56,484 bases of DNA, taken from assembly GCF_001270965.1 (NCBI RefSeq), contig NZ_LGIA01000164.1, positions 1-56,484 on the forward strand. The letters are read 5' to 3'. The stretch's first letter is position 1, and each line of letters begins with the position of its first letter. Below the pieces are notes generated by a model. It ran no database searches. It was not told the DNA's origin and saw only the letters and a list, made by a program, of their open reading frames with translations. This document shows positions 18,511 through 43,648 of this stretch, one piece after another. The stretch is from Sunxiuqinia dokdonensis (GTDB lineage Bacteria > Bacteroidota > Bacteroidia > Bacteroidales > Prolixibacteraceae). A program made the translations under genes and the position numbers.

Positions 18511-18763
18511 AATTACAAACTTTTTTTAGGAATCTCAACAGTTGCTTAAAATCAAAAAATGTACATTTTAGGAAAATGTAAAAATGGATAAAAAAACTAA
18601 ACCTACATTTCATGAAAAAGCACATGGTGATTAAAAAACTAAATGTATATTTTAGGAGAAAGTACATGGTGATTAAAAAACTAAATCTACACTTTAGGAA
18701 AATGTGAGTTTTGATTAAAAAATCAAATCTACATTTTAGGAATCTGTAAATTTTCTTAAAATC
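18511..18763. repeat. Array of six degenerate ~42-bp tandem repeats
   Basis: Six AT-rich units with the anchor TTTTAGGA (CATG in the second unit) at 18527, 18569, 18611, 18654, 18695 and 18737, a spacing of 41-43 bases. A typical unit is a run of A, then CTAAATCTACATTTTAGG, which holds an inverted CTAAA/TTTAG pair, then a variable part ending TGATT. The first and last units resemble each other most (TTTTAGGAATCT...CTTAAAATC). The array fills the region just upstream of the AraC-type gene. No protein frame explains it, and a 42-bp period equals four helical turns. The rest of 18484-18932 shows no gene. Confidence 0.85.
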
Positions 18764-18932
18764 TGGATGCGTTTATCCGGAGCACTTGAAACTTTTTCTG
18801 AATTTTGCATCGTGAGATGATAGCCGGATGATCGTTTGGATAACAGGAAGCGGTGTGGCTGCTCTGCCTATGTCCGTTCATGGGCCTGGAATCAGCATCC
18901 ATTCGGGACGAGATATGGCACCGGGTGCTGCA

Positions 18933-19388
18933 CTAGTTATCTTCCAATCGTTTAATCATTCTTTTCATTTCTGCTATTTCCCTTTCTTGAGCTTTAATAA
19001 TTTCTTCCGCTAATTGTTTTACTTCCGGATCTTTCAAGTCAGCTCTATTGCTTGTCAAAATGGCGATGGAGTGGTGTGGTATCATCGCTTTCATCCATTT
19101 GACGTCTTCAATCGGGAGTTGTTGCCGTACCAAAAATGTTGAAAAACCCATAAGCATAATACTTCCGACGACAATGGCCAGGTTCTTTTTCTTATTCTTA
19201 TACATGTTTTTCATAGACAAGAACATGATAATGGCCATGCCGCTTATTCCAATTAAGGTCATATACACCCGGGTCCAACTAAAGAAAATGTGGCTGAATT
19301 CATAAGTATTGAAATACATCGTTAGGTACATCGAAATTGCTGAACCGGTCAGCATCAGAATGAATTTCGTGTAATTTGAATTTTTCAT
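18933..19388 (-). CDS. DUF305 membrane protein
   Basis: 151 aa from the ATG at 19388; 13 further upstream codons lack similarity. Three hydrophobic spans occupy about residues 5-25, 35-55 and 65-85. They are followed by the DUF305 core MIPHHSIAILTSNRADLKDPEVKQLAEEI, then a charged helix ending KRMIKRLEDN. The MxxHH motif suggests metal binding, and DUF305 proteins are often found with copper or other metal handling genes, but no such genes are near here. It is probably an inner-membrane protein. It stands alone between the AraC-type regulator and the divergent 19666 gene. Confidence 0.8.
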   Translation of the reverse strand: MKNSNYTKFILMLTGSAISMYLTMYFNTYEFSHIFFSWTRVYMTLIGISGMAIIMFLSMKNMYKNKKKNLAIVVGSIMLMGFSTFLVRQQLPIEDVKWMKAMIPHHSIAILTSNRADLKDPEVKQLAEEIIKAQEREIAEMKRMIKRLEDN

Positions 19389-19613
19389 CTTGTTTTTATT
19401 TTGGTTCTGAAAATTCGAACGCGACACATTGGACGTGCTATTACTGGCGTCTGTGTGCTGATTCCTGTAACAAATGGATTCTTGATGAAGTTTAATGACT
19501 TGCTGATTGCAAAGGCGTTCGGGTTTGTTTTGGGCTCTTCGGTATTGTTGCGTGAGGTTTTGCTGCGCCAGGCGTGGCTGGCTAACGCATCACAAGCCAG
19601 AACTGTCCGCTGC

Positions 19614-19645
19614 TTGGTTTTATTTTTCCAAAATGCCTACCTTTC
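19614..19645 (+). promoter_or_regulatory. Putative promoter of the 19666 gene
   Basis: TTG at 19614-19616, a 21-base spacer and TACCTTTC at 19638-19645, one base off the TAnnTTTG consensus. It predicts a transcript start near 19651. That favours the ATG at 19666 over the in-frame ATG at 19633. Confidence 0.4.
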
Positions 19646-19665
19646 AGCCTCAAAATCCAACAAAA

Positions 19666-20037
19666 ATGAATCTACCCAATATTACCCACACCAATGTCGA
19701 TGTTTTCCTGAATCGCGAGGACATCATTCTCGATACGATTGCCCAAATCATGAAGGATTTTGGTTTGTTCGGCGTTGAAATTCACTTTTCGGGCCACATC
19801 GACGATGCTTACCATGAGCTGCACCAGCAGTTGGTCGGGCAGGTTGATTCGTTGTTGATTCACAATTCGGACCTGCTGATGTCGATTCTGTACCAGGTTG
19901 ACATTTCCGACCGCGATATTTCCTGCACACAGGCCGATTTTCCGCGCTATAATCAGGTAGAGGTGATTGCCCATCAGATTATCTTTCGCGACTTGAAAAA
20001 GGTCTTATTCCGGCGTTATTTCAGCGCTCAAGGATAG
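19666..20037 (+). CDS. Conserved-looking hypothetical protein next to the phosphate transporter
   Basis: 123 aa from the ATG at 19666; an in-frame ATG at 19633 is an alternative, but a promoter-like element overlaps it. There is no signal peptide or membrane span. The protein is acidic and helical, with VDVFLNREDIILDTIAQIMKDFGLFG and a C-terminal QVEVIAHQIIFRDLKKVLFRRYF. The composition is that of a small cytoplasmic soluble protein. I do not recognise a domain. It is convergent with the Pit transporter gene and shares a terminator with it, so nothing links the two beyond position. Confidence 0.65.
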   Translation: MNLPNITHTNVDVFLNREDIILDTIAQIMKDFGLFGVEIHFSGHIDDAYHELHQQLVGQVDSLLIHNSDLLMSILYQVDISDRDISCTQADFPRYNQVEVIAHQIIFRDLKKVLFRRYFSAQG

Positions 20038-20043
20038 GGACTA

Positions 20044-20069
20044 AAAAGCCGGACACTTGGCCCGGCTTT
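20044..20069. terminator. Bidirectional terminator between the 19666 gene and pit
   Basis: AAAAGCCGG, an 8-base loop, then CCGGCTTT, flanked by A-rich sequence on the left and T-rich on the right. It can serve both convergent genes. Confidence 0.75.
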
Positions 20070-20092
20070 CTGTATTTGTTGCTCGCTATTTT

Positions 20093-22330: not shown

Positions 22331-22361
22331 TTTTTTGCTATAAGATTGACGGGGGCAAAAA

Positions 22362-22411: not shown

Positions 22412-22481
22412 GAACCGTCAATTTACTATTAATGAGGGAACAAGCAAAATTTTATTCTAAATTCGTCGCAAACAAATTTTT

Positions 22482-23516: not shown

Positions 23517-23611
23517 AAGTCGTAATTTTCGTAGGTTTTCAAGTTTAAACGATCATTTACATTCAAATTCACGCAGTGCTTCTGCCTTTGCAGTGGTTAA
23601 TCTATTCAACT

Positions 23612-24313: not shown

Positions 24314-24319
24314 TCGCTT

Positions 24320-28411: not shown

Positions 28412-28754
28412 GTTGTTTGTTGTGTTTTGCAGATTATTTCTTGTGCTTCCTGATGATCAGGCGCAAAATCGAATCACAAAAGTACATTTTTCTGCTGAAA
28501 AACATGAATTGGACCCTGAAAAGTTCAGGCAGTGAGCCCAGTTGACTTCCTTTGGGAGATCGATTTTCGAAATGCCAGGAATGATTGCTCTTTGGAGAGC
28601 GTACGCTTTTTTGTATTAAAGGGAGGACTTCACGCGGCAGTTCCTTGTTCTATTTCGTGTTAAAAAACACGATTCATCATAGGTGTGGTATCTCAATTAT
28701 TTCTATTTTTGATAACAATGTAGAATTTCAGGTCATATAATTAATTCATTTGCA
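28412..28754. other. Intergenic region between divergent asnS and lipoprotein gene
   Basis: 343 bases without a convincing gene. On the minus strand a -7 box (28477-28484) probably serves asnS. A perfect 7-bp hairpin, TCGTGTT/AACACGA with an AAAA loop, lies at 28655-28672. TTCATTTG at 28743-28750, just before the lipoprotein ATG, resembles a -7 box but sits too close to the start to be convincing. Confidence 0.5.
28477..28484 (-). promoter_or_regulatory. -7 box upstream of asnS
   Basis: Reads TACTTTTG on the minus strand, matching TAnnTTTG, about 65 bases upstream of the asnS start. No TTG -33 element is seen. Confidence 0.4.
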
Positions 28755-30020
28755 ATGAAAAAGTTAGGCAGGTTTTTGTTTCCGTTGATTTTGATTCTGG
28801 CAATCGTCATTTTGTCAAATTGTAAAAAAACAAGTAGCGAAGAACCCATCGAAGCGCAGGATATTGCGGGCGTGGTGCAAAAGGGGCCATTTATTAGCGG
28901 CAGCTCGGTGACTCTGTATGATTTGAAATCGGATTTGACGCCGGTGGGAAAGTCGTATAATGCCCAGATAGTCGATAACCAAGGTTCCTTTCAACTCAAT
29001 GGGATTGCCTTAAGTTCGGGCTATGTCAGCGTAAGGGCCGATGGTTTTTATTTTAATGAAGTGGCGGGCAGCCAGTCGGCAGCACAGCTCACGCTGTATG
29101 CTTTGGCCGATGTTACCGGCTCGGGCTCAATCAATGTGAATTTGCTGACCCACCTGGAAAAACCGCGGGTGGAATTTTTGATGCAGCAGGGAAAATCGTT
29201 TTCCGAAGCAAAAATTCAGGCACAAAGAGAAGTCCTGGCCATTTTCAGTCTGGATAAAGATGGAGTTGGAGCTTCGGAGAGTTTGAATATTTCACGGGGA
29301 GGCGAAGACAATGGCATTTTGCTGGCTATTTCGAGCATTTTGCAGGGCTACCGTTCCGAAGGAGCGTTGACCGAACTTTTATCGAACATCAGCAACGATA
29401 TTCGCGAAGATGGGCAGCTGGATGACGAAAACCTGGGAGCGGCTCTGATTAACCATGCCGTATCACTCAACGCGACAGCCATTCAGGCGAACCTGGCCAA
29501 GCGATATCAGGAACTTGGGGCAACGGCAAGTGTTCCCGGTTTTGGACCGTTCATCACCAACTTCATTACAAAAACTAGCTTTGAGCCGACAGGACCTGTG
29601 ATTACTTACCCGGCCAGCGGAATATATGGACAAAACATTCTTGCTTTGTCGACAACAGATTACTTCTCAGGACAAGGTAATCTTTTCAGCCTTGCTGCGG
29701 AACTGCCAAAAAATTCGGCCCTGAAGGTTCGGATTACTGCGCTCAGCGATTCAGACACCATAACAACGGTTTCGGCTGATACGACTGAAGTTTCAGGACC
29801 AGTGACAACCAAGGCGGCATGGTATTACCAAACAAGTACGAACTACAACTGGTCCATCTCTGATTTTGATATGGAGACTTTTTCGCAGACCTTTACCGCT
29901 ATCGAGTCTGATCAATCCTGCGGTTTGGCGTTGTTCTTTGATCGTGGTTCGTTTTTGGTTGAATATTTTGAGATGAATGCCATCGAACCAAGCAAGGAAA
30001 AGACAATCACTGTGGAGTGA
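28755..30020 (+). CDS. Lipoprotein of unknown function
   Basis: 421-aa exported lipoprotein. The signal ends with a lipobox at IVILSNC. The mature part starts with an Ig/carboxypeptidase-regulatory-like stretch (IAGVVQKGPFISGSSVTLYDL), in which the phrase KGPFISGS recurs in Bacteroidota surface proteins. A helical middle follows (NLLTHLEKPRVEFLMQQGKSFSEAK) and a beta-rich C-terminal half. I do not recognise an enzyme motif. It is followed 52 bases later by a serine hydrolase gene on the same strand, so the two may form an operon. Probably at the cell surface or outer-membrane inner leaflet. Confidence 0.8.
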   Translation: MKKLGRFLFPLILILAIVILSNCKKTSSEEPIEAQDIAGVVQKGPFISGSSVTLYDLKSDLTPVGKSYNAQIVDNQGSFQLNGIALSSGYVSVRADGFYFNEVAGSQSAAQLTLYALADVTGSGSINVNLLTHLEKPRVEFLMQQGKSFSEAKIQAQREVLAIFSLDKDGVGASESLNISRGGEDNGILLAISSILQGYRSEGALTELLSNISNDIREDGQLDDENLGAALINHAVSLNATAIQANLAKRYQELGATASVPGFGPFITNFITKTSFEPTGPVITYPASGIYGQNILALSTTDYFSGQGNLFSLAAELPKNSALKVRITALSDSDTITTVSADTTEVSGPVTTKAAWYYQTSTNYNWSISDFDMETFSQTFTAIESDQSCGLALFFDRGSFLVEYFEMNAIEPSKEKTITVE

Positions 30021-30072
30021 TAAAGGGGCTTTGAATAATCGATTTCAATGCCGAAATGACAAGCAAAATGAT

Positions 30073-31176: not shown

Positions 31177-31223
31177 GACAGCAATCAACCAAGCTTTTAA
31201 ATCTTGGACCAGTGTTGGATTAG

Positions 31224-31450
31224 ACGAAGGAAAAGCCGAAAAGCCAGCTCTTTTCACGTATTCCGATAGATTTCCAAGCGAAAGTCAACCGTCAGCTTTC
31301 ATTTCTATGAGTTTCCAAGCGAAAGTCAGTCGTCAACTTTTATTTCTATGGAATTCGAAGTGAAAATCTGCGATTAACTTTTACTTCTATGAAATTCTAA
31401 ATGAAAGTCAGCCGCCATCTTTTAATCCGATGGAATCTGAAATGAAAAAG
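31224..31450. repeat. Array of five or six 41-bp tandem repeats
   Basis: Degenerate units with anchors at 31265, 31306, 31347, 31388 and 31429, exactly 41 bases apart, and a weaker unit before the first. A unit reads roughly GAATTCCAAGCGAAAGTCA, then a C/G-mixed middle, then CTTTTATTTCTAT. It fills the gap between the convergent beta-lactamase-fold gene and the DUF4998 gene. No reading frame runs through it, and no inverted ends or target duplications are seen. Confidence 0.85.
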
Positions 31451-31479
31451 GCTCAGCCCAAATTGGACTGAACCTTTTT
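31446..31479. terminator. Hairpin between convergent genes at 31.5 kb
   Basis: AAAAGGCTCAG, a loop, then CTGAACCTTTTT. An 11-bp stem with one wobble and a T-run on the plus strand and an A/T-rich flank on the minus side. It probably terminates the SusC/D locus and also the 30073 transcript. Confidence 0.7.
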
Positions 31480-31510
31480 ACTGGTTTATTAAATGGTCTA
31501 GTGTTTATCT

Positions 31511-33151
31511 TTATTCCTTGGTAAACCGGATGTTTGAAAAGTAATACACTAATTCCTTGGAAGGATCTGGTCCTGGTTCACCTCCAATATTCAAAATAAT
31601 AACACGGTTGTGTCTGCCCAATGCCGTTGACATATCCAAAGTAATGTCAGTCCACTGGTGCAAATCTTCATCCGGGATATAGAACCGGGGGATGTCCCAG
31701 TATTCCTGGCCGTAATCACTATTGCCGCCAAATGACCACATGTTGTTCATAATACGGGGCCAAAGTCTTTTAAAAGGTTCATCTGATCCTGTTAATTCAC
31801 TTGCTGTAGGAGTATAGATTTTAAATTTCAGGTATTTATATTCTTCAATGTTAAATCTATATTCTTTTGGTAGGGCAATAACAAAAGAAGCACTTCGTTT
31901 GCGCGGAATAAGCTTATAAACATTTTCAAGCCCGTCTCCTTCGGGCGCATCTGTCGCAGGGAAAGTGTAATCGAGTGTGAAATTTCCATCCTGAACAATT
32001 CCGTCCAGATGGAATTGATTGCCAACCAAAACTTCATCGGGATTTTCAACCAGTTCTACCACGCCACTTGCAACGTAAGGCATTAAGATGTCATCGAGTC
32101 CCATGGTGTGTGGATGATAGTACACTTTTGTGAGTATTCCTGCTTCGAGGAAATCCTTCAAGGTATTTCCACCTGAAACGTTGCCGACTTTTCGCATGAA
32201 CGGTGAAAATTCACCTCCACCTACAACATCTTGAACACCATTTCTGTCGTACGCCAACTCTGTAATACTAAACATATCGCCACCGGTTAAATCCAGTGTT
32301 TCCAAATTCGGGAAATAGAAGATATCCTGCAGCGAATTGGCGTGGATTGGATAGACCAGCTCGGTAATGTCAGACACACCATCGGCTGTAAAAGTAGTAA
32401 CCCCATTGGCCTGAAGGATGTCTCTTTCGGCTGGCGCAAATTCGGATGAGGTGGTTGGCATATTCACATTCAGTACATTCTCAAAGATGACCGTATCCAA
32501 AATGGGTTGGCGGTTGACAATCGGAATGATTTTATATTCCATGTCGATGGCAACCGGTTGTCCAGCCTCAACATTTCCGATAAAGAATCTTGAATTCGCT
32601 CCACGTTCACCACTCTGAACCTCTCCGTTTTTGTCGGTATACTGAAAATTCAAGCCATAGTAGTTCATCAGTACCGATGAAATTCCGTTTGGCCAGTCAA
32701 TGACGGCGGCTGAGGGCGATGCCATGACCCGAGGTGGGGTGACGGCATAGTTCGCCAGGTCGGTGCTGGTAAAGGGAATCAGGGCAATCTCGAGCGGCAC
32801 AGATTCATTTCCAAACTCGTCGATGGTGTACACCTTAAAACGATAGAGTTTGGATTGTGTCAGTCCGGTAATGTTGACCCATGAAACCAAAGAATCAATG
32901 GTGATAATCTGATCGTCATACTCAATTCGAGTCTTTTTAGCTTTTCCCAGTCGAATCTGACTGCTGGGAATACGTCCGGCTTTCATCAGGTCAATTTCAA
33001 CCCGTTCGAAGCCGATGTGTCCAATGATGGTATCGTACTTAGCCGGATAGACAACTTCTCCTTCATACTGTTCCTGCTTTTCGTACATGCCTTCGCACGA
33101 CCACATAAATGTTGCAAAAACCAATATTGATAGCAATATGATGTTTCTCAT
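31511..33151 (-). CDS. DUF4998-type surface lipoprotein of the SusC/D locus
   Basis: 546 aa from the ATG at 33151; the frame extends 37 codons up without a signal. A lipobox at TFMWSC makes it a lipoprotein. The first ~220 residues resemble two fibronectin/Ig-like DUF4998 units (LVSWVNITGLTQSKLYRFKVYTIDEFGNES). The rest contains a carbohydrate-binding-like beta domain (FVIALPKEYRFNIEEYKYLKFKIYTP ... WTDITLDM ... YYFSNIRFTKE). As the last gene of the locus it is most likely a surface glycan-binding protein working with SusD. The ligand is unknown. Confidence 0.75.
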   Translation of the reverse strand: MRNIILLSILVFATFMWSCEGMYEKQEQYEGEVVYPAKYDTIIGHIGFERVEIDLMKAGRIPSSQIRLGKAKKTRIEYDDQIITIDSLVSWVNITGLTQSKLYRFKVYTIDEFGNESVPLEIALIPFTSTDLANYAVTPPRVMASPSAAVIDWPNGISSVLMNYYGLNFQYTDKNGEVQSGERGANSRFFIGNVEAGQPVAIDMEYKIIPIVNRQPILDTVIFENVLNVNMPTTSSEFAPAERDILQANGVTTFTADGVSDITELVYPIHANSLQDIFYFPNLETLDLTGGDMFSITELAYDRNGVQDVVGGGEFSPFMRKVGNVSGGNTLKDFLEAGILTKVYYHPHTMGLDDILMPYVASGVVELVENPDEVLVGNQFHLDGIVQDGNFTLDYTFPATDAPEGDGLENVYKLIPRKRSASFVIALPKEYRFNIEEYKYLKFKIYTPTASELTGSDEPFKRLWPRIMNNMWSFGGNSDYGQEYWDIPRFYIPDEDLHQWTDITLDMSTALGRHNRVIILNIGGEPGPDPSKELVYYFSNIRFTKE

Positions 33152-33185
33152 AATTTTAATCTTTAAATCACTGTTCCTAATAAAC

Positions 33186-34463
33186 TTAATTTGCAGCCTT
33201 TCTGCCATAAAGGGTAATCTCAGACAAGCAGTTGGCATTATCCAGCGTGTAGTTACCACCAAAGCCTTTCATGGCCCGGTAACGGAACCAACGGGTAGGT
33301 TTGGTGTATTGAGGTTCATCAGGATACATGTAGGCTTCATCGCCTTCTTTTCCTTTTTTCACAATTTCGAGTTCACTGAGTCCTACGGGAACTTCAATTT
33401 TATTCTCCGATACATACTCCCACGACTGTGTGTCTTCATCCCAGATGTACATTTCGTAAAGACCAACATTCTCACCGCGGTAATACTGTCCCTGGCAAAG
33501 GTCGCCGCAGAAATCCATATGACGCTGATGGGTCAAAATCCGGCTCAGCTCATAGTGGTCTCCCAGGTCGATAATCACGTTCCAGGGCATGTTTCCGTCA
33601 GCACTACTTCCGGTGCGGCCACGGCCTCCGGTGTGCATGTAGTTGAGGTTGTTTCCTTCGTCGATAATACCGTCAATGACGCTAACTAAGCGGCCTTCAA
33701 CATTATCACCAAACGCCTGGGGAACGCCTCCAACGGAGTCGCTGTTCAATGGAAGTTCCCATCCCTCTTTCGAAAGTACCATGTCTTCCAACAGGTGAAT
33801 TTGGCCCATGTCTTTCGGTTCAGTGATGTTCCCGTAAATATCTGAAACGCGAATTGACACACTAACCGGATCTTCTGAACTCAGCGCAAGATCATCAACA
33901 AATCGCCGGTCCTCTTCGAGGTTGGATGAGAAAACCGAAGTGAACGATCTTGACTCGCCGTTTTGGCTGTAATTGAAATCGATGTAAACATTGATACTTT
34001 GCTCCAGCTCATTGATCCAATCGACGAAGAATGATCCAAAGGCTGGTTTCAGTTCGAGTGAATTGACCACCCTTGAAATGGCCGACTCCAGTGGTTTAAC
34101 TGTAACGGCAACCGGTGTTGAGCGGTTACCCGCCCGGTCAACAGCATACAAATCAATTTCGTAATTGATGGTATCGCCAAAGCCATACACATCGAGCGAA
34201 TCGACAAAGTATGAGGCCGAAAAAGAGAACGAATCGCCTTGTTTGTTGGTATAAACGGCTTCGACACTTAAAAGATCCTCATCATCCGGAACTTCATAAT
34301 AGAACCGGGCACCACCATAGAGTGGCTGGTAGGTCACCTCTGTTGGAGGCTGTGGAGGTATGCTGTCATCAGATGTTGCCCGGTGCACCTTCTCCTCTTC
34401 GCAGGAAGTGACAACCAGCAAAAATGCTGCAATTAGTAGTAAATATGCTTTTATGGTTTTCAT
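33186..34463 (-). CDS. DUF4959/DUF5000-type surface lipoprotein
   Basis: 425 aa from the ATG at 34463. A lipoprotein signal ends LVVTSC. The following Ig-like units (GARFYYEVPDDEDLLSVEAVYTN ... VDRAGNRSTPVAV) match the DUF4959 and DUF5126 pattern. The C-terminal ~150 residues (NMPWNVIIDLGDHYELSRILTHQR ... RWFRYRAMKGFGG ... LSEITLYGR) form a discoidin-like DUF5000 carbohydrate-binding domain. Proteins of this build follow susD in many Bacteroidota loci and bind glycans at the cell surface. It lies between susD and the DUF4998 gene on the same strand with short gaps, in one operon. Confidence 0.8.
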   Translation of the reverse strand: MKTIKAYLLLIAAFLLVVTSCEEEKVHRATSDDSIPPQPPTEVTYQPLYGGARFYYEVPDDEDLLSVEAVYTNKQGDSFSFSASYFVDSLDVYGFGDTINYEIDLYAVDRAGNRSTPVAVTVKPLESAISRVVNSLELKPAFGSFFVDWINELEQSINVYIDFNYSQNGESRSFTSVFSSNLEEDRRFVDDLALSSEDPVSVSIRVSDIYGNITEPKDMGQIHLLEDMVLSKEGWELPLNSDSVGGVPQAFGDNVEGRLVSVIDGIIDEGNNLNYMHTGGRGRTGSSADGNMPWNVIIDLGDHYELSRILTHQRHMDFCGDLCQGQYYRGENVGLYEMYIWDEDTQSWEYVSENKIEVPVGLSELEIVKKGKEGDEAYMYPDEPQYTKPTRWFRYRAMKGFGGNYTLDNANCLSEITLYGRKAAN

Positions 34464-34507
34464 ACGATTCTTTTTATCGTGTTTATTAAATAAATAACCT
34501 GTCACCA

Positions 34508-36472
34508 TTACCATCCCGGGTTCTGAACCAGGTTAGAGTTGGTATTCATCTCATTCAAGTCGATTGGCCATAGGCAATCGGTGATGGTAAACCGTCTGGT
34601 TTGCTTGACTTCCAGGTTGAAGAAATTGGCGCCAGTACTTCCGGTATAGTCCCATCCCCAAACAGGGTTTGAAAATTCCATGACGGCCCTTTTGGTCCGG
34701 ATCATGTCCCAGAAACGGCTTCCTTCAAAAGCGAATTCAATGCTTCTTTCCTGAAGGATGATATCACGCATACCCTCTTTCGTTTTGTGCTTATTGACTG
34801 ATTTTACAATGCTGGCATCTGCCCAGACGCTTTCAACATCAGGAACTCCGGCTCGTTCACGAACCACATTAATCGCGTCATAAACTTCCTGGGTTGGTGT
34901 GTCGTAGTATTCGTTCAGAGCTTCTGCTTTCATCAGGTACAAATCGGCCAACCGGATAATCGGGTACGGATATTTTACGGTACGCGCCCAGTGACCCGAC
35001 TTCGATTCCATGTGAACAAACTTCTTGATGCCAATACCAGTTTCGTAATAGTCGGTGGTATGTTGCGAGGAGTTGAATCCTCCATGGCTACCAGCATACA
35101 TGACTGTATTAATCCGTACACCATGCGAACGCCAGTATCCGCCCGTAATGGCCAGATTTGCGTAAAAGCGTGGTTCGCGGTTCAGGTACAGGTTAATCGT
35201 TTCTGCTCCGGGCTGCATAATGCCACGCAGTTCTTGGTACTCCGGATCACTGGCTCCGGGAGTAGTGGTCAGTTCCCACTTTTTATCCAGCTCAAAGGTC
35301 AGGTCTTCTTCAATAGGAACGCCGTTTTTTGTGTAGTACCGTTCAGCCATCCGGTAGGTTGCCGCCATCCATTGCCACGAGAAACCGGGCGTATTGGTAA
35401 TGCCGCCACCGTAACCTTCGGGCAAACGCATGTTGGTGGAGTGTGCCAGTTCCGAGCCACCATAAATATCAATGTTGGAAAAGCCCCACACCAGTTCCTT
35501 GTTCCAGGGGTCGGTAATGGCCATTCTCAAATCGTAAATACGCTGTACGTTTTCTGTGTTTGCCAAATAGTCTTCACGATCAAAAACATAGGGTTGGGCA
35601 GTGTATTCGTACAGTTCAATGCCATTGGTCTCGCAGGCTGCCAGGGCCTCGTCGATGGCGTCAATGGCATCTTTCCATTTTTCCTTATCGTAGTCCAGCG
35701 GAAAGTAGGGGTCACCGTTGGGGGCAAAAAAGTCACCAAAATATTCCATATTTCCATTGAAGAATGGACTGGCACGGAACAGCATCACCCGGGCTTTAAT
35801 GCCTTTGGCGGCTGCCTGGTCCACTTGGCCGAGGTTTGTCGCAATTGCTTTTTCCCGAAGTTCAGGAATCGCTTCATCCATCAAGGCAATGATGTAGTCA
35901 AAGCATTCTTCCACACTTGAACGTTCCTGGAATAGGTCTTCCTTGGACGCGTCAGGGGCAATTAATTCGTCTGCGATGATGATTGGTCCGTATTTTTGTA
36001 CCAGCAAGAAGTTGTAGTAGGCTTTCAGGAATTTGACCTGGGCACGCCATTCGCTTCTTTCTTCGTCTGACATATCGGGTACTTTATCGATATTGGAGAG
36101 AAATACATTGGCTTGGCGGATTCCGGCGTACAGCCGTGTGCCGGCAGATGTACCGGACCAATCGCCCAGCAGAGGATCTGTAGCCGATTGCAGTCCCCGC
36201 ATCAAACGGATTCCTCTTAAGTCCCATGCATTGTCATTCAAATCGAGGCGTCCGATATATTCATCTCCTGCCGTCCAGATAGAGCTGTGTGTTTGTTCTA
36301 TATGCGGCATATAGCTATAAACTTTAGCCAGTGCATCCCAGGCTTCCTCTTTCGACTTAAAGAGGTCCTCCAGGGTTAAGGTATTGTCCGGAACCACATC
36401 CAGATACTCAGAGCAGGATGGTGTGAAGGCAAGGACAAGAAACAATATGATTAAATTTTTCAATCTTTTCAT
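34508..36472 (-). CDS. RagB/SusD-family nutrient-binding lipoprotein
   Basis: 654 aa from the ATG at 36472. A lipobox at FTPSC places it at the outer-membrane surface. The N-terminal TPR-like helical region begins DVVPDNTLTLEDLFKSKEEAWDALAKVYSYMPH, and the C-terminal SusD domain includes YPIIRLADLYLMKAEALNE, VRERAGVP and RSIEFAFEGSRFWDMIR. SusD binds the substrate as a lid on the SusC transporter just upstream. Its presence next to a broken SusC reading frame is noted under that gene. No glycoside hydrolase lies in this locus, so the ligand cannot be guessed. Confidence 0.93.
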   Translation of the reverse strand: MKRLKNLIILFLVLAFTPSCSEYLDVVPDNTLTLEDLFKSKEEAWDALAKVYSYMPHIEQTHSSIWTAGDEYIGRLDLNDNAWDLRGIRLMRGLQSATDPLLGDWSGTSAGTRLYAGIRQANVFLSNIDKVPDMSDEERSEWRAQVKFLKAYYNFLLVQKYGPIIIADELIAPDASKEDLFQERSSVEECFDYIIALMDEAIPELREKAIATNLGQVDQAAAKGIKARVMLFRASPFFNGNMEYFGDFFAPNGDPYFPLDYDKEKWKDAIDAIDEALAACETNGIELYEYTAQPYVFDREDYLANTENVQRIYDLRMAITDPWNKELVWGFSNIDIYGGSELAHSTNMRLPEGYGGGITNTPGFSWQWMAATYRMAERYYTKNGVPIEEDLTFELDKKWELTTTPGASDPEYQELRGIMQPGAETINLYLNREPRFYANLAITGGYWRSHGVRINTVMYAGSHGGFNSSQHTTDYYETGIGIKKFVHMESKSGHWARTVKYPYPIIRLADLYLMKAEALNEYYDTPTQEVYDAINVVRERAGVPDVESVWADASIVKSVNKHKTKEGMRDIILQERSIEFAFEGSRFWDMIRTKRAVMEFSNPVWGWDYTGSTGANFFNLEVKQTRRFTITDCLWPIDLNEMNTNSNLVQNPGW

Positions 36473-36490
36473 CTTCAATCTTTTTAAATA

Positions 36491-36731
36491 TTAAAACGAT
36501 AACTGGATACCAATATTAAACCGCTTGTTTGGCGGATAGCCCAATCCCCTGTTACCCATCTCCGGGTCCCATAGTTTGAACGGGCTGATAACAAAAAGGT
36601 TGGTTCCACTGGCATAGATGCGGGTACTTTGTAAGCCGATCTTCTTGAAGGTGTTTGCCGGGAGATTATATCCCATTTCAACGGTTTTCAAACGAAGGAA
36701 AGCGGCATCACGTAACCACCACGATGATGGA
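36491..36731 (-). pseudogene. Frameshifted C-terminal part of the SusC gene
   Basis: In another frame, the missing end of SusC is intact: SSWWLRDAAFLRLKTVEMGYNLP, then a last beta-strand ending in the terminal Phe (FNIGIQLSF). This is exactly what should follow the truncated ORF. The two frames meet at about 36724-36731, where one extra base would account for the shift. There is no long homopolymer at the junction. The sequence beyond the junction shows no other decay, so either a sequencing error or a recent mutation is plausible. Confidence 0.85.
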
Positions 36732-39700
36732 TGTTCTGGTGTTGTTCTGTAAAGGGTCAACCGATAGCCGAGGCCAAAAAGCATGAACATCGGGGTTGGT
36801 TTCACTCCAGTAATCCTCGGCGATGATGGTTAAAGCGTTTCGTCGTCCAGCAAATGGAGCAATACCGTCGTCACCGGTTCCTGGATTGATAAACATTGAA
36901 ACCCGGGCGTTCCCCTGGAAGAAGAACGACAGGTCAAAGTCTTTAAATCCACCTGATAAACCAAAGCCGTACTGAATCTCAGGTACGGTAGGTAAACCCA
37001 GAGGGACCTCGTCGTTAGCATTCACTACGCCGTCACCGTTTACATCCTTGTATTTGATATCACCGGCCTGGTAGGTACCAAAGTCTTGCTTGGGGGAGTT
37101 GGCAATTTCAGCTTCATCCACAAACAAACGCTCGGCAATCAAGCCCCACCACTGGTTGATAGGATGTCCCTGGCGTTTCAAGTATTCATCGGCATAATCC
37201 CGTTCATCCAATTGAACGTATTCATTGGTGGCAAAGGTGAAGTTGGCACGGCCGGTCATCCACCAATTATCTTGCGAAATGTATTGGTAATCAATGGACC
37301 CTTCAAAACCCATTGATTCCACTTTCCCAACGTTTCCGCTAATGGATGCCTCCAGACCTGCAGAGGATGGGAAGTTTTGGCGTTGCAGATAAATCTGGTC
37401 ACGAATATCCTTGAACACATCTCCCTGAATCTTTAAAGCATCGTCGAGGAACGTTAGTTCAATACCCAGGTTCATTTTTGTTGAAACCTCCCAGGTAATA
37501 TCGGGGTTGGCATACCGGTTGATCCGGTAACCGCCATATTCATTCATAAAGGTATTTCCCCAGCGATAACCGCCTCCTCCTCTAGCAATATCGGATAAAT
37601 AGAAGAAACGATCCTGCCGTTCGGCAATGGCATCGTTACCTACTTTTCCCCAGGTAGCCTTCAACTTTAGGGTGTTGATGATATTTTCCATGGGAGCCCA
37701 GAACGATTCGTTAGAGACGAGCCAACCACCTCCAAATGAAGGGAAGAAACCAAACCGGCGGTCGCCACTGAATTTTTCCGACCCGTTGTATCCGTAAGCG
37801 AACTCGAAGAAATAGCGGTTGTCGAAATCATAAGTTAGACGTCCCGAGTTTCCCATGTTTCGTTCCGGAAGCGTTTCATAAATAGAACGGCTGTTCCCAC
37901 TGGTCAACAGGTATTCTTCAAACATACCCACGGTCATTAAACCTACGCTGTGCAGCCCGAATTTACGGTCCCAGTTCAAACGGCCTTCGTAGTAATAGTG
38001 CGCACTGGCATCGCGTCCCGGATTGACATCACCTAGGAATGCCTGTCCTCCGGTTGGGTTCAGGGCAAAAAGCGTATATTCTCCGGTAATCTGGTTGTAG
38101 TTTTCCAAGTCGTAATAAAACGGACTGTATGATCTTGTACTTCTGTATTGACTCCAGGTGTTGACCGAGGCTTTGGCTTGCAACTTCAATCCTTCGGTGA
38201 TAAAATCCAGGTCCTGCGAGAGAGTAGCCATGGCCGTAATCGAGCTTTCATTCCGGTCTTCGTAACCACGAACCATCTCAGCATAGGGGTTGGCTTTCAG
38301 GTTCCCGGTAACAAAGGTATTTCCAAATAAAATATGATCGGCGAAAGCGTGCTTTTCATCCGCTTCATAAACAGCAGGAAAATCTACTGGATTAGAGTTC
38401 ATGACCTGTCTGAAAATATCGCCTGCACCGGTGGCTGGACCATTGTAGCGTTCAAACCGGCCTTGTAGCCTGGTATCCAGTCTGGTGGTTGGTGTCAACT
38501 TAAAAATAACGTTGTTTCGCAGCTGGACCCGGTTGATACTGATGTTGTTGTTAAAATTGTTCTCCGGGGCAACTTTTAACAGACCATTCTCGTTTTCTAC
38601 CGTTCCAGCTACATAATAGGTGGCCACCTGACCACCGCCTGATACGTTAAAATTGGCTTTTTTATTGATGGTTGATTTCTCAAACAATTCATCATACCAA
38701 TCAATATTGGGATAAATCATCGGGTCAACACCATCAATGGTCGATTGAATCTTCTGTTCGCTGTAATAGGCCCCGAGTAGTGGATTTCTGGAAATCCGGG
38801 CTTCGTTGTACAGGCGCATGTAATCCACGCCGTCCAGCAATTCGTTCATCTGGGTTGGGGTGGCGATATGTGTTTCTAGTCTGATGTTGATTTTAGCCGG
38901 TCCTTCGCGCCCTGACTTGGTCTCAACAATGATAATTCCGTTCGCTCCCCTTGCACCGTATAGTACGGTAGCCGAGGCATCTTTCAAAATGGAGAAACTC
39001 TCGATGTTATCCGGTTCCATACGGGCCAGATCATCCGGCGAGGCCTCAAAGCCATCAATCAAAATCAGCGGATTGGTTTTGTAACCAAAAGTAGTCACCC
39101 CGCGAACAAAGAACTGCGCGTTGTCATTGCCGGGTTCACCTGTTGTTTGGTACGAAATAATCCCTGGAATTTTACCCGCCAAAGCACTGGTCAGGTTCGA
39201 TGCTGGTTGCTTTAGATCGGCCGGTCTTACTGTTTCAATAGAAGAAATCACACTCGTTTTTTTCTGCCTACCGAAAGCAACCACCTGGACTTCTTCCAAC
39301 TGGGTGTCATCGTCATACAATGCTATATCGAAGATATTGCGATCTCCAACAACCTGCTCAACCGGGGTTTTCCCAATAAATGAGAAGATCAGCGTGTCGC
39401 CTACAGCAGCCTGCATGGAAAATTCACCGTTCACATCGGTACTGGTTCCCCGTGCAGTTCCCTTCACAGCAACTGAAACGCCAGGAAGGCCAAGGCCTAC
39501 GTCATCTTTCACCACCCCTGATATTGTTTTCAGGCCCGGTTGTTGGATAACTTCCTGCACCTGTTCGGAAGCTTCGGTCTGATCAGGAATAATAACAATT
39601 TGCCGATCAGAGATTTCATACGTCAGGTCTGTTCCTTCGAACGCTTTTCTGAGTATTCGCTCAACAGAAAACCGTTCAGCTTTAACGCTCACTTTCTTTT

Positions 39701-39962
39701 CAAGGTCCACATCGCTGTCCTTGTAAAAGATAATAAACTCGCTTTCTTCCTGAATCTCTTCAAAAAGCTGTTTCATCGTCCCGTTTTCCAGGTTTATGGA
39801 AAGCCTGGTACTCTGAGAATAAGTAGAAGTTGCGTACAAGTTGCCAACTCCCAGCAGAAGCAGTAGTACACTCAATTTCATAACTCTTAAGAAATGTGCA
39901 CAATAGTCCCTTCGATGGAAAAAATACGCACAGTTGCCACTTTTTTTCATAAATTTGTTCAT
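36708..39962 (-). CDS. SusC/RagA-family TonB-dependent transporter, frameshifted at the 3' end
   Basis: 1084-aa ORF for the outer-membrane barrel that imports ligands with SusD. It begins with a signal peptide and an STN domain (about 45-115, IEEIQEESEF-like), the mark of transducers that signal to a FecR anti-sigma factor. A carboxypeptidase-like domain (about 145-225) and the plug with LTSALAGKIPGIISYQTTGEPGNDNAQFFVRG follow, then the barrel. The ORF stops early with NNTRTSIIVVVT, just short of the expected SSWWLRDAAF segment, which continues in another frame (see the neighbouring entry). As it stands, the last beta-strands are missing and the barrel would not insert. FecR and the ECF sigma are directly upstream. 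Confidence 0.88.
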   Translation of the reverse strand: MNKFMKKSGNCAYFFHRRDYCAHFLRVMKLSVLLLLLGVGNLYATSTYSQSTRLSINLENGTMKQLFEEIQEESEFIIFYKDSDVDLEKKVSVKAERFSVERILRKAFEGTDLTYEISDRQIVIIPDQTEASEQVQEVIQQPGLKTISGVVKDDVGLGLPGVSVAVKGTARGTSTDVNGEFSMQAAVGDTLIFSFIGKTPVEQVVGDRNIFDIALYDDDTQLEEVQVVAFGRQKKTSVISSIETVRPADLKQPASNLTSALAGKIPGIISYQTTGEPGNDNAQFFVRGVTTFGYKTNPLILIDGFEASPDDLARMEPDNIESFSILKDASATVLYGARGANGIIIVETKSGREGPAKINIRLETHIATPTQMNELLDGVDYMRLYNEARISRNPLLGAYYSEQKIQSTIDGVDPMIYPNIDWYDELFEKSTINKKANFNVSGGGQVATYYVAGTVENENGLLKVAPENNFNNNISINRVQLRNNVIFKLTPTTRLDTRLQGRFERYNGPATGAGDIFRQVMNSNPVDFPAVYEADEKHAFADHILFGNTFVTGNLKANPYAEMVRGYEDRNESSITAMATLSQDLDFITEGLKLQAKASVNTWSQYRSTRSYSPFYYDLENYNQITGEYTLFALNPTGGQAFLGDVNPGRDASAHYYYEGRLNWDRKFGLHSVGLMTVGMFEEYLLTSGNSRSIYETLPERNMGNSGRLTYDFDNRYFFEFAYGYNGSEKFSGDRRFGFFPSFGGGWLVSNESFWAPMENIINTLKLKATWGKVGNDAIAERQDRFFYLSDIARGGGGYRWGNTFMNEYGGYRINRYANPDITWEVSTKMNLGIELTFLDDALKIQGDVFKDIRDQIYLQRQNFPSSAGLEASISGNVGKVESMGFEGSIDYQYISQDNWWMTGRANFTFATNEYVQLDERDYADEYLKRQGHPINQWWGLIAERLFVDEAEIANSPKQDFGTYQAGDIKYKDVNGDGVVNANDEVPLGLPTVPEIQYGFGLSGGFKDFDLSFFFQGNARVSMFINPGTGDDGIAPFAGRRNALTIIAEDYWSETNPDVHAFWPRLSVDPLQNNTRTSIIVVVT

Positions 39963-40074
39963 CTTTTAGTTATTAAATATCGCCTTTGGCGATGTTTGTT
40001 AAGTACCAAAGCTTGCAGGTGTTGCAGCATCTGCAGGCTTTTTTTGTTCCAGGTTTGATTGTAATTTATATCGT

Positions 40075-41214
40075 TTAGTAGATCGTGATTCTTTGTTCCT
40101 CCTCTTTAAAGTTAAATGGTGTTGTTTTTTTGATGGTATTCAACACTTCTTCGGGACTGCTTTTAAGATCCAGACGGCCCGAAAAAGTAACTTGAGCCAA
40201 CGGCTCGTCTTGCAGTTCGATTTCAATATTGTAATAGCGCGATACTCTTGTCAGGATGTTACCGAGGGTTTCACTTCGGAATACATAGTAGCCGTGGTGC
40301 CAGGATAAATAATCAGAAGGATCAACTCGCCGGCTGTTGAATTTTTCTTCGGTGGCATCAAACGTCACCATCTCTCCCGGTGATATCATCTTATTTTCGG
40401 CTGGCAAAAAGGCTTTTGTTTTACGGCTCAGTTTAATGGAACCCTCTTTTAAGACCGTGCTTGATATTTTATCCTCCGAATAGGCATTCAGGTTGAAAAT
40501 GGTTCCAATTACTTCGATGTCGAATTGTTGTGATTTGACGATGAATGGCTTTGCCGGATCTTTGGAAACATTGAAAATGGCTTCGCCGTCCAGGTAAACT
40601 TCCCGCTTGTTTTCGGCAAATACGGCGGGATATACCAACTTCGAACCCGAGTTTAACCAGACTGTTGTTCCTTCGGACAGGGTAATTTTTGACCGCCTGC
40701 CGTAGGGAACCGTTAGCGTATTGAAGCTTGGTTCTACCGGTTCCAGTTTTTGCTGAACGGTTTGATTTGCTCCAATGGCAATTTCTTCTCCTTTGGTGCT
40801 GTACTGAATTTCTGACTCCACTTCCGAAATCTCGATGGCCCGGGCTTCACTTAAAACTAAGCGGGTAATCGTATCTGTTTTGTTTTCCTGAACGCTGTTG
40901 GCAAACTCCGCAATCTCGGAGTGCTGATCCACTTGGCTGTACCAAACTCCGCCAGACAAGGCCAAAATAAAAACGGATGCGGCGGTAAACCAGATTTGTC
41001 TGGTTTTTCGTCGGGTAATGGATTCGATGGAATACTGGATGCGCGTTTTTAATTGCTTCTTTTCCAATACAGACCACTGGTCCTTTGGTGTTTGCAAATA
41101 GGTATAAAGATGACTGGCTGATTTTAAAACCTTCGGGCTGGCATCTGCTTCTTCCCTGATTTTCTGCGTCGTAATCTTTTCTTCGGCTAAAATATCTTCG
41201 ACTTTCTTTTTCAC
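40075..41214 (-). CDS. FecR-type anti-sigma factor
   Basis: 379-aa inner-membrane regulator. The cytoplasmic N-terminus (about 1-75) binds the sigma factor. One span lies at about 76-95 (IWFTAASVFILALSGGVWY). The periplasmic FecR domain (about 170-270, LTVPYGRRSKITLSEGTTVWLNSGSKLVYP) and the C-terminal DUF4974 STN-binding part (about 310-379, YYNIEIELQDEPLAQVTFSGRLD) contact SusC. The start is a GTG at 41214, since the nearby ATG is out of frame and ends at once. It lies between the ECF sigma gene and susC, the classic transduction order. Confidence 0.92.
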   Translation of the reverse strand: MKKKVEDILAEEKITTQKIREEADASPKVLKSASHLYTYLQTPKDQWSVLEKKQLKTRIQYSIESITRRKTRQIWFTAASVFILALSGGVWYSQVDQHSEIAEFANSVQENKTDTITRLVLSEARAIEISEVESEIQYSTKGEEIAIGANQTVQQKLEPVEPSFNTLTVPYGRRSKITLSEGTTVWLNSGSKLVYPAVFAENKREVYLDGEAIFNVSKDPAKPFIVKSQQFDIEVIGTIFNLNAYSEDKISSTVLKEGSIKLSRKTKAFLPAENKMISPGEMVTFDATEEKFNSRRVDPSDYLSWHHGYYVFRSETLGNILTRVSRYYNIEIELQDEPLAQVTFSGRLDLKSSPEEVLNTIKKTTPFNFKEEEQRITIY

Positions 41215-41309
41215 ATGAATTGTGCTTATACCTATATAAAGAAGAAAAAAGCCAAAACATAGACAGCAAAAATGATTTTTTTTTCGAAAAAAAGTTAAAT
41301 CGCTGATTT

Positions 41310-41915
41310 TCAGAGCTGATTTTTGGAATAAAGCAGGACGAATAAGTTCAAGGAAATTTCGTGTTTGGAAAGGCTTTTCCGTAGCGACTTTAAGGCCCGA
41401 TACATATTGGTTCTGGCCGATTCAACTGAAATATTGAGCAGGACCGCAATTTCGGTGTAGTTGAGGTCTTGTTCAAACTTTAGAAAGAGCGCCCGTTGCT
41501 GTACTTTGGTTAGCTGGCTGATGGCATTGGCCAGCAAATCCATGCCTTCTTCCTGCCTCTCCGAGTCGATGATTGTCTCGTCGCAAGCCGGGGAGTGCGC
41601 ACGGATCGTCTTCTCGAGCTTGTGATCAAGCTTTAGCAAACTCATGCTTAGTCGCTGTTTGTGAATGATTCGCTTTAACGTGCGGAACAAATAAAACTGG
41701 ATGGAGTCGGTGGGGCGCAACTGTTCGCGGTACTTGTGCAGTTCCAAAAACAGGTCGTGGATGCAATCCTTCACGAAATCGCTGTCTTTACAAAATTGCA
41801 TGCCAAAGCTGTACAACGCATCGCTATATTGGTCGTACAGTTCGTAAAAAGCTTTATCATCCCCAGCTTTAAAGCTTTTCCAAAGCAAAAGGTCTTTTTT
41901 CGGTTGGTTTGGCAT
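41310..41915 (-). CDS. ECF-type RNA polymerase sigma factor
   Basis: 201-aa sigma-70 group IV factor. Region 2 is seen at about 20-90 (DDKAFYELYDQYSDALYSFGMQFC ... FLELHKYREQL) and region 4 at about 130-190 (AISQLTKVQQRALFLKFEQDLNYTEIAVLLNISVESARTNMYRALKSLRKSL). It is encoded directly before its FecR anti-sigma factor, so ligand binding to SusC should release it to transcribe this locus. A good promoter lies upstream. Length and domain order are typical of the Bacteroidota ECF group linked to SusC/D. Confidence 0.93.
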   Translation of the reverse strand: MPNQPKKDLLLWKSFKAGDDKAFYELYDQYSDALYSFGMQFCKDSDFVKDCIHDLFLELHKYREQLRPTDSIQFYLFRTLKRIIHKQRLSMSLLKLDHKLEKTIRAHSPACDETIIDSERQEEGMDLLANAISQLTKVQQRALFLKFEQDLNYTEIAVLLNISVESARTNMYRALKSLRKSLSKHEISLNLFVLLYSKNQL

Positions 41916-41957
41916 ACAATCCTGAAACTATTGGCACAAGCAAATTTCTCTCGGGCT

Positions 41958-41987
41958 CAAAAATAGGATTAATTTCGCTAACATCAA
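41958..41987 (-). promoter_or_regulatory. Promoter of the ECF sigma gene
   Basis: On the minus strand TTG, a 19-base spacer, and TATTTTTG match the Bacteroidota promoter consensus, about 40 bases before the sigma start codon. Confidence 0.55.
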
Positions 41988-42039
41988 TTACATACAGAGC
42001 ATCAATAAGTTTTGGATTTGACCCAAAAAGTTCACGATG

Positions 42040-42072
42040 CCAAAAGAGCTTCAATCATTGAAGCTCTTTTGG
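42040..42072 (-). terminator. Terminator after the TIM-barrel isomerase gene
   Basis: Perfect 15-bp inverted repeat (CCAAAAGAGCTTCAA and its complement) around a 3-base loop, 15 bases after the stop of the 42088 gene. The lack of a strong T-run is common in this phylum. Confidence 0.8.
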
Positions 42073-42087
42073 TATCTTTTTTTGCGT

Positions 42088-43011
42088 TTAAAAACTGTCT
42101 GCTTTGCGGTAGGCATCAATGAAAGCCTGTTCTCCCTCTTTTCCCGGAATGCTGCGACCATGTTCGCAGCAAAGCACGCCGTCGTAGCCTTTGTTGTGAA
42201 TGTGTTTGAATACATTAACAAAGTTGATCTCGCCGGTGCCCGGCTCTTTACGCCCCGGATTGTCGCCAATATGGAAAGCGGCAATCGATTCCCAGGCCAT
42301 GTCAATGTTTGGGATGAGGTTGCCTTCGGTAATTTGCTGGTGGTACAAGTCGTTCACCAGTTTGCAGCTTGGGCGGTTTACGGCTTGGCAAATCATGTGC
42401 GTTTGCGGGATTTTGGTCAGGAACAAACCCGGGTGATCGGTCCAGGCATTGAGGGGTTCCAGTACCAGGGTCAGCCCTTCCGGCTCAACAATATCGCAAC
42501 ACATGCGCAGGTTATCGATTACGTTGGCGGTTTGGTAGTCCCACTCCAGGTTGTCAGCATAGCGTCCCGGAACCACCAGGGCCGTTTTGGCGCCGGTGCG
42601 TTTGGCACAATCCAGGCCTTCCTGCATTTTCTTACGCAGCATGTCCTTGATTTCCGGATCTTGTGTGACGAACGACTTCACACCAAAATCAGCATACAGC
42701 ACAAACGGGCCCAAGTCCATTCCGTGGCGCGCCAACTCGTTGGCAATTTTATCCTGTAGTGCAGCGTCTTTGTGCATCAGGCCGTTGTCGAAAATGGCGC
42801 GGAAACCCTGATCGTTCATAAACTTGATCTGGTCGATCGGATCATTTCCCGCCATTTCGTTAAAAGTGCCCAGCCCGGGGGCATACTTCAGTTTAAACTT
42901 CGCCGAGTTGGACGTTTGTTGCGTTGAAGCCGATGCCGATAGCCCGGCGGTTAATCCGGTAGCTGCAAAGCTCCCGAAAGCGGCGTTCCTGATAAAATTT
43001 CTTCGTTTCAT
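42088..43011 (-). CDS. Hydroxypyruvate isomerase-like TIM-barrel protein, Tat-exported
   Basis: 307 aa. The N-terminus MKRRNFIRNAAFGSFAATG is a twin-arginine signal. The body is a xylose-isomerase-like TIM barrel with typical metal-binding residues: a Glu in GLTLVLEPLNAW, an Asp/His pair in NIDMAWESIAAFHIGD and a Glu in GVLCCEHGRS. Such Bacteroidota proteins are annotated as hydroxypyruvate isomerase or sugar phosphate isomerase/epimerase, but the true substrate of the exported form is not known. It has its own promoter and terminator and is divergent from nothing obvious. The ECF sigma gene lies downstream on the same strand as a separate unit. Confidence 0.82.
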   Translation of the reverse strand: MKRRNFIRNAAFGSFAATGLTAGLSASASTQQTSNSAKFKLKYAPGLGTFNEMAGNDPIDQIKFMNDQGFRAIFDNGLMHKDAALQDKIANELARHGMDLGPFVLYADFGVKSFVTQDPEIKDMLRKKMQEGLDCAKRTGAKTALVVPGRYADNLEWDYQTANVIDNLRMCCDIVEPEGLTLVLEPLNAWTDHPGLFLTKIPQTHMICQAVNRPSCKLVNDLYHQQITEGNLIPNIDMAWESIAAFHIGDNPGRKEPGTGEINFVNVFKHIHNKGYDGVLCCEHGRSIPGKEGEQAFIDAYRKADSF

Positions 43012-43036
43012 TGTAGCAATTGGTTTAGTAAAGTCT

Positions 43037-43067
43037 CAAAAATAAGATTAATTCATCCAGATTACAA
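43037..43067 (-). promoter_or_regulatory. Promoter of the TIM-barrel isomerase gene
   Basis: On the minus strand TTG, a 20-base spacer, and TATTTTTG, 25 bases before the gene start. Same architecture as the ECF sigma promoter at 41958-41987. Confidence 0.6.
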
Positions 43068-43235
43068 ACAGTTTTTTAAGCGTGGCAGCTACGATTTGGT
43101 TTTGTTCGTTCATTATTTATAGAATGAGTTGAAAAATTTTCATCGTGCAGGATCGTCGAACAGGGGGTTCTTAGCCAGTGCCCGCGCTGGTTCCTTCCCT
43201 TGTTTTCCAAAGCCAAACCCTTGTAGGCCGTCTAA

Positions 43236-43345
43236 GCTCTGTAGACAGAGCGTCATTCCGAACTGGTTTCGTAATCTGTTGGTGAGTTGCGCGGGTTGAG
43301 GGGACGGTTATCTGACTTATCCGACCCGTGAAGGATCTCGATGCC
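43236..43345. repeat. Interspersed non-coding element of the CGTCATTCCGAA type
   Basis: Begins with a perfect 7-bp hairpin (GCTCTGT/ACAGAGC, 43236-43251), followed by CGTCATTCCGAACTGGTTTCG and a GC-rich segment reaching about 43345. This phrase is common in dispersed, palindrome-containing intergenic elements. The partner arm is only weakly visible, so the copy may be degenerate. The rest of 43068-43373 shows nothing I can identify. Confidence 0.5.
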
Positions 43346-43373
43346 CGGTTTCAATACCGTGGGAAACTTCGAG

Positions 43374-43648
43374 CATGAATTGTTTTGCAAAAAGTACTTC
43401 GAGTTTTGTAAAAGTGATTCTTCATTTTGCTAAAATGAGTATAAGTTTTGAAGAGACAGGTATGAGTGTTGATATCATTGGTATGAGTGTTTATATAATC
43501 GGTGTGAGTGTTGATATAATTGATATTAGTGTTCAGATAATTGAGATCAGTATTGAGATAATTGATATGACTGTTGAGCTAATTGATATGAATGTTTAGA
43601 TCATTGGTATGAGTGTTGAGTTAGCTGGTATTGGTTCGTCTAAATAAT
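43374..43648. repeat. Array of about thirteen 21-bp tandem repeats
   Basis: A clean 21-bp periodicity runs from 43374 to about 43648. The first units carry a core like TTTTGTAAAA; later units read GTATGAGTGTTGATATAATTG with scattered changes. The array ends about 100 bases before the XRE-type gene at 43746. Since 21 is a multiple of 3, one frame from ATG 43375 stays open for 74 codons as a 7-residue repeat (MSVDIIG type), until an amber codon at 43597. The repeats go on past the stop, so coding is uncertain. 21 bp equals two helical turns. Confidence 0.88.

Follow-up and report, generated by a model that had tools for sequence, protein, structure and literature searches.

Helically phased tandem arrays upstream of solitary regulator genes in Sunxiuqinia dokdonensis and its relatives are candidate autoregulatory operator lattices

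Three tandem arrays lie within 25 kb on contig NZ_LGIA01000164.1 of Sunxiuqinia dokdonensis (Prolixibacteraceae, Bacteroidota). The 56,484 nucleotides analysed, here called the window, are one whole contig of a 4.96-Mb draft genome. According to Tandem Repeats Finder (TRF), array A (18557-18751) has a period of 42 with 4.6 copies and 76% matches. Array B (31271-31448) was reported in rows with periods of 41 and 82, about 4 copies [4.1] and 75-89% matches, and array C (43461-43620) with a period of 21, 7.6 copies and 80% matches. Autocorrelation peaked at 42/84/126 for A, 41/82/123 for B and 21/42/63 for C, so that the three periods noticed in a first-pass annotation of the DNA were confirmed by both methods. 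The additional claim that all periods approximate multiples of 10.5 bp is justified in the case of 21 and 42 bp, while 41 bp corresponds to 3.9 helical turns. Judged by eye, the units of A, B and C have no sequence relation to each other. As had also been proposed, two of the three arrays are located upstream of short stand-alone genes for DNA-binding proteins, A before an AraC-type helix-turn-helix (HTH) gene of the HTH_18 family and C before a gene of the HTH_26 family. Array B is flanked by the 3' ends of two convergent genes, which encode a beta-lactamase-fold protein and a DUF4998 protein (Table 1).

Table 1. Positions of the arrays and of the associated regulator genes in the window
Feature	Position	Strand	Basis and remarks
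AraC-type HTH_18 regulator P0001, stand-alone, 152 aa	18025..18483	-	Pfam 33.6 bits = cut-off; orthologues exist
-7-like box TAATTTG	18509..18515	-	15 bp after last array A half-site (18524-18530)
Array A, 42-bp lattice: CCTAAA-type half-sites, TTTTATCA-type half-sites midway (21 bp)	18524..18751	-	TRF and half-site positions; upstream of AraC-type gene
Array B, 41-bp units, orphan copy of DUF6261-type array, between two convergent genes	31258..31450	.	TRF; matches G000:C142:10005-10356 and G000:C6:43665-43760
Array C, direct 21-bp lattice; clear 43461-43620, degenerate beyond	43382..43702	+	TRF and upstream segment analysis
HTH_26 (Cro/C1-type) regulator P0002, stand-alone, 126 aa from ATG	43746..44126	+	Pfam 37.9 bits vs cut-off 22

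Array C continued past the TRF call with in-register copies from about 43382 to 43702, corresponding to a segment from -355 to -35 of the P0002 gene. The open reading frame at 43737-44126 on the plus strand would yield 129 aa if read from TTG 43737; ATG 43746 is the likelier start. P0002 belongs to the Cro/C1-type regulators with an HTH_26 domain above the curated cut-off. A structural model with a mean predicted local distance difference test score (pLDDT) of 83 comprised, besides the Cro/C1 HTH, a 22-residue helix at the C-terminus, which could carry protein contacts. Matches of the model to known folds were at the level of the HTH (best E 2.6e-3, none at or below 0.001); short Cro/C1-type regulators such as CylR2 and restriction controller proteins were among the structures listed. 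By sequence the HTH of SaPI2 Stl was found in the PDB (E 4e-4) and PHROGs gave a weak match (E 0.006); NCBIfam had nothing for P0002.

Homologues of P0002 were gathered by protein only from 100 relatives, a set of named genomes and 395 genomes of the phylum. This yielded 36 loci (10, 19 and 7, respectively) after removal of the duplicates L006, L059, L060 and L113 (equal to L051, L009, L008 and L002) and exclusion of eight partial loci with short or broken matches (L012-L019, E 1.4e-7 to 7.9e-4). The 36 loci are partly non-independent as they include same-genus pairs and paralogues. Frame breaks or contig ends truncate the proteins of L067, L068 and L071, and the identities given for these refer to the part present. 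For each gene, lags of 8-69 were compared over the upstream 345-380 bp to determine the best one. Controls were 577 genes of a background sample with at least 250 nt of free upstream sequence, among them 401 AT-rich ones; they include positives such as the AraC-type gene of the window and three DUF6261 genes. A z of at least 3 at lag 21 was seen in 34 of the 36 HTH_26 loci compared with 13/577 controls and 3/401 AT-rich controls, and the best lag was 21, 42 or 63 in all 36 compared with 49/577 and 26/401. The mean z was 7.3 at lag 21 and dropped to 1.3 at 20 and 0.9 at 22. The median array segment spanned -280 to -61 with ten copies.

The HTH_26 family is sparse with strong matches in 7 of the 395 phylum genomes including its own; three of the six others were outside the class. 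The 21-bp period was present in all seven loci from this search. No neighbouring gene family recurred in more than 2 of 21 HTH_26 loci, several of which are short contigs. A mobile module was rejected as an explanation: the family had no match in 72,556 plasmid records, and the matches in one phage record and three viral contigs covered the HTH part only.

The units of the HTH_26 arrays look unrelated across genera. Among loci with >=4 copies (n = 34) the similarity of units was nevertheless correlated positively with the identity of the proteins (Mantel test, rho 0.27, p 0.001 by permutation). Resemblance was confined to the same strand and to proteins more than about 60% identical, for which unit similarity amounted to 0.43-0.59, compared with 0.26-0.29 below this identity. 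In alignments of related loci a gap of exactly 21 bp occurred in 5/8, and conservation peaked at period 21 in 4/8 comparisons (p 0.005-0.04). None of nine HTH_26 arrays tested had significant dyad symmetry.

The regulator downstream of array A, P0001, carries the C-terminal double HTH of the AraC/XylS family (HTH_18), scoring just at the cut-off. A separate sensing domain is usual, not universal, in this family; the 152 residues of P0001 matched no further Pfam family at E<=0.01, so that no such domain is evident. We analysed eight of the nine loci with strong matches, i.e. the window gene and seven relatives 50-70% identical to it. All strong homologues were from the same bacterial family, none being found in 294 other genomes of the order. 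The best upstream lag was 42 in 7/8 loci. In the window the array A half-sites form two series, which lie at -257, -215, -173, -89 and -47 and at -236, -194, -152 and -110 from the ATG. Across the AraC loci 28 of 42 pair distances between CCTAAA cores deviated by no more than 1 bp from multiples of 42. The TTTTATCA-type site resembles an inverted CCTAAA core, and in 6/8 loci its distance from a core was an odd multiple of 21 bp. Array units were dyad-symmetric in all three cases tested (p 0.012, 0.010 and <0.002), and the half-site letters are conserved across genera.

In 5/8 AraC loci a -7-like box of the type TAnnTT follows 15 bp after the start of the last half-site, although the distance of the box itself from the ATG varies from 21 to 36 nt. 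This offset is the best sign that the regulator's own promoter may be what the lattice is arranged around.

In their own genome A and C were each detected at a single place; the paired half-site pattern of A had three matches in the array and two elsewhere, compared with one for a control pattern. Chance was excluded for A and C because arrays recur before homologous genes, and for B because a B-type array recurs before a DUF6261 gene of the same genome. This closest relative of array B (79% identity over 175 bp) is a 41-bp array of 7.7 copies by TRF directly upstream of the DUF6261 gene on contig C142. A third B-type array (81% over 96 bp) lies on contig C6, for which no DUF6261 match was listed. 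Elsewhere B-type sequence was limited to one 39-bp match in genome G003, with none in 11 other genomes.

Ten DUF6261 loci were drawn from 56 matches in 16 of 61 genomes plus one plasmid. Three were all those in the background sample (3/3 with arrays). The choice of six others (L222-L226 and L232, 5/6 with arrays) was based on the protein alone, and L230 entered the set via its array. The best lag in the upstream stretches, which vary from 303 to 540 bp, was 41 or 42 in 9/10 genes (L074, L125, L127, L222, L223, L225, L226, L230 and the Parabacteroides distasonis plasmid gene L232), the exception being L224. Among the 577 controls lag 41 was best in nine, two of which precede DUF6261 genes. Dyad symmetry was significant (p<=0.012) in 6/9 DUF6261-type arrays including orphans, with a p of 0.058 for array B; of five other 41/42-bp arrays one was dyad-symmetric (p 0.036). 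Judging by its sequence relatives, array B, which has no HTH neighbour, is an orphan copy of a DUF6261-type array.

A relationship of array B to A or C was discarded since it matches DUF6261-type arrays instead. That it is an old part of the region was rejected as well: two genomes of the genus lack the 13.5 kb holding it (28526-42073) and have only about 140 and 160 bp at the corresponding position. Two further long 41-bp arrays, L078 15792-16215 (10.3 copies) and L083 13227-13547 (5.9 copies), have no adjoining DUF6261 gene, like B; neither is dyad-symmetric.

The distribution of periods was examined in 2.55 Mb of eight genomes (L202, L203, L208, L220 and L221 were left out). The 104 intergenic arrays with a TRF score >=50 peaked at 11 bp (14), 20-23 bp (22) and 41-42 bp (16), with a trough of eight at 24-40 bp and a single array at 30-33 bp. 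Thus the distribution is not flat, as had been predicted. The genes beside the 21/41/42-bp arrays were varied, and the predicted enrichment at HTH genes shorter than 160 aa failed to appear: a 21/41/42 signal was present in 4/129 short compared with 9/448 longer genes, and of the four short genes only the AraC-type gene of the window has an HTH domain in Pfam. The arrays are linked to particular gene families, not to short HTH genes in general; the period goes with the family because HTH_26, AraC-type and DUF6261 genes each carry their own.

Several other arrays were noticed in passing. Those of 21/42 bp at L075 8874-9055, L094 9551-9619 and L140 2591-2689 adjoin proteins of about 220-245 aa without a Pfam family above cut-off, perhaps a fourth array-associated family; a weak relationship connects the proteins of L075 and L140. 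A 23/46-bp array (L077 17777-17900) lies directly downstream of a gene for an HU-type DNA-binding protein (PF14848), and the complete genome of a relative contains 23 copies of a 258-bp unit, 97% alike (L095 10913-16863). The arrays of period 11, i.e. one helical turn, came in 13/14 cases from the samples of genomes G017 and G047 (L142-L181).

We consider it somewhat probable that the regulators encoded behind A and C use these arrays as operator lattices for autoregulation. With one half-site occupied every two helical turns, copies of the HTH protein would line up along the same side of the helix and might touch each other. Together they would cover about 200-350 bp up to the gene's own promoter, which would make control of the gene steep and self-limiting. 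The HTH_26 family would use a direct 21-bp lattice and the AraC-type family inverted half-sites 21 bp apart, hence a 42-bp period, and the sites would drift along with the protein. Array B would be the same kind of structure for DUF6261 with 41-bp units, here minus the gene. The operator lattice is favoured because of the position of the arrays, their register, the AraC promoter offset, the lack of recurrent neighbours and the fact that neither A nor C was found a second time in the genome; the binding itself, any cooperativity, and autoregulation together with its sign are our inference. The earlier idea that small HTH proteins and phased sites form a shared mechanism is partly supported: two particular HTH families nearly always carry such arrays (34/36 and 7/8 loci), and array B belongs with DUF6261.

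Several data weigh against this interpretation. Gaps of 1, 2, 4, 9 and 17 bp were also present in the alignments of related HTH_26 loci, and four overlapping comparisons within Prolixibacter displayed conservation without 21-bp periodicity. Among the AraC comparisons conservation by phase was significant in one of three, with none at 21 or 42 in the other two. One locus of each family lacked a clear array, namely L066 (HTH_26) and the AraC orthologue L028 (best lag 21, z 3.5). The -7-like motif was not clearly enriched before HTH_26 genes (9/36 compared with 332/1867), so that autoregulation rests mainly on the AraC family, for which the motif variants were picked after inspection of the loci. 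Finally, the Labilibacter paralogues L062 and L063 have identical HTH regions and lattices of about equal length in the same register, yet the letters have diverged (motif similarity 0.15, 45% identity over 359 columns). A coevolution of HTH proteins with their sites, as suggested initially, is backed by the correlation of unit similarity with protein identity in the HTH_26 family; the pair speaks against a simple reading of the sequence.

Second after the operator lattice, and rather unlikely in our estimation, ranks a scaffold or centromere-like role. By coating its array the protein would organise or mark the chromosome, and any control of its own gene would be incidental. Usual operators have far fewer sites than the median of ten in HTH_26 arrays. 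A scaffold would also fit the lack of a conserved target gene near the HTH_26 loci and orphan DUF6261-type arrays standing away from the gene. On the other hand, the AraC lattice is locked to the -7-like box in 5/8 loci, no motor gene recurs nearby and the plasmid collection contained no homologue. The precedents are the plasmid partition systems ParR/parC and omega/parS, where a small DNA-binding protein occupies tandem sites at helical spacing beside its own promoter and represses it (PMC5016525). The arrays described here share the tandem arrangement beside the gene, with putative binding by the encoded protein. They differ in that the partition proteins are of the ribbon-helix-helix or winged-HTH type as opposed to Cro/C1 or AraC HTH, and in that parC has repeats of the 10-bp class and a motor gene as opposed to 21-bp steps and no recurrent partner gene.

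The Labilibacter pair, together with the unrelated look of units from different genera, could also be explained if the shape of the DNA were read rather than its letters, i.e. if a 21-bp periodic bend or A/T pattern were selected and unit letters spread by drift and conversion. We regard this as unlikely, more so than a scaffold, as unit letters track protein identity, AraC-family half-sites are conserved across genera and AT-rich controls seldom show the period.

A function of the arrays as transcribed RNA, be it as a leader, a terminator or a series of hairpins, is improbable, and so is one as coding sequence for heptad peptides. Array B, which is adjoined by a terminator-like hairpin, and five of six other dyad DUF6261-type arrays (L230, L231, L222, L223 and L127) did fold better than shuffled sequences (z -2.4 to -8.6), whereas A and C (z 0.16 and 1.16) as well as L125 and L074 (z about -1.1) did not, and no Rfam family matched in the window. 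Coding heptad repeats were dismissed because 22 of 32 HTH_26 arrays >=100 bp have stops in all six frames.

Least probable of all is passive tandem duplication, in which functionless repeats two or four helical turns long would arise in gaps through replication slippage or a nuclease: 21/41/42-bp arrays also adjoin many unrelated genes and some, e.g. L076 and L074, are near-uniform across the unit, yet for A and C it was already disfavoured, and a period tied to the gene family, a register held while letters diverge and the fixed promoter offset of the AraC lattice go unexplained by slippage alone, which also disposes of the coincidence considered at the outset.

Other known systems share single features with these arrays. 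Iterons of plasmid replication are helically phased direct repeats, about 20 bp each, to which the product of a nearby gene binds. The likeness lies in directly repeated units of this size class in register; unlike with iterons, there was no Rep among the ten window genes scanned and no HTH_26-family match in the plasmid records. CylR2 and restriction controller proteins are short Cro/C1-type autoregulators acting on their own promoters through few operator sites. P0002 has the same HTH fold in a short protein and a presumed autoregulation, but the sites of its family form a 21-bp lattice of median ten. Repetitive extragenic palindromes and the mosaic elements built from them (REP/BIME) are intergenic 20-40-bp palindromes, with one palindrome dispersed in many copies. 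The 41-bp units resemble them in their dyad symmetry; in contrast, they are tandem and occur at one to three places per genome (three for the B family, one each for A and C). A neutral minisatellite, unlike these arrays, would not have a period that depends on the neighbouring gene family. Within Bacteroidetes, intergenic direct repeats of the heptamer TAACTGA with a proposed regulatory role were described in five members (PMC4679880). They consist of one fixed heptamer, mostly beside start codons in the main genome studied, and the available part of that paper presents neither a 21-bp lattice nor a partner gene family (PMC4679880).

In the open literature, covered by titles and the beginnings of abstracts with most subscription papers outside this coverage, there was no description of arrays before HTH_26 or DUF6261 genes. 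The term DUF6261 occurred in one open-library paper, by its title on a Streptococcus topic.

A much wider generalisation, which we put forward tentatively and with modest expectations, is that Bacteroidota possess DNA-lattice modules, each a solitary gene with its own array. The step would be set by the protein family (HTH_26 21 direct, AraC 42 dyad, DUF6261 41 dyad) and the letters rewritten array-wide in step with divergence of the protein. In that case DUF6261 would represent a DNA-lattice protein not yet described, and orphans like B might serve as distant docking points for folding or marking the chromosome.

Taken together the data suggest a little-noticed kind of self-regulating DNA switch. 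The two-turn spacing is kept before one regulator family inside and outside the class with almost wholly changed letters, and thus the geometry of assembly appears to be separable from sequence. Dozens of natural protein/array pairs are at hand for reading how specificity changes, and the uncharacterised DUF6261 family receives a first lead. Furthermore, the link to gene families helps to explain the genome-wide peak of 21/41/42-bp tandem repeats in this bacterial family.

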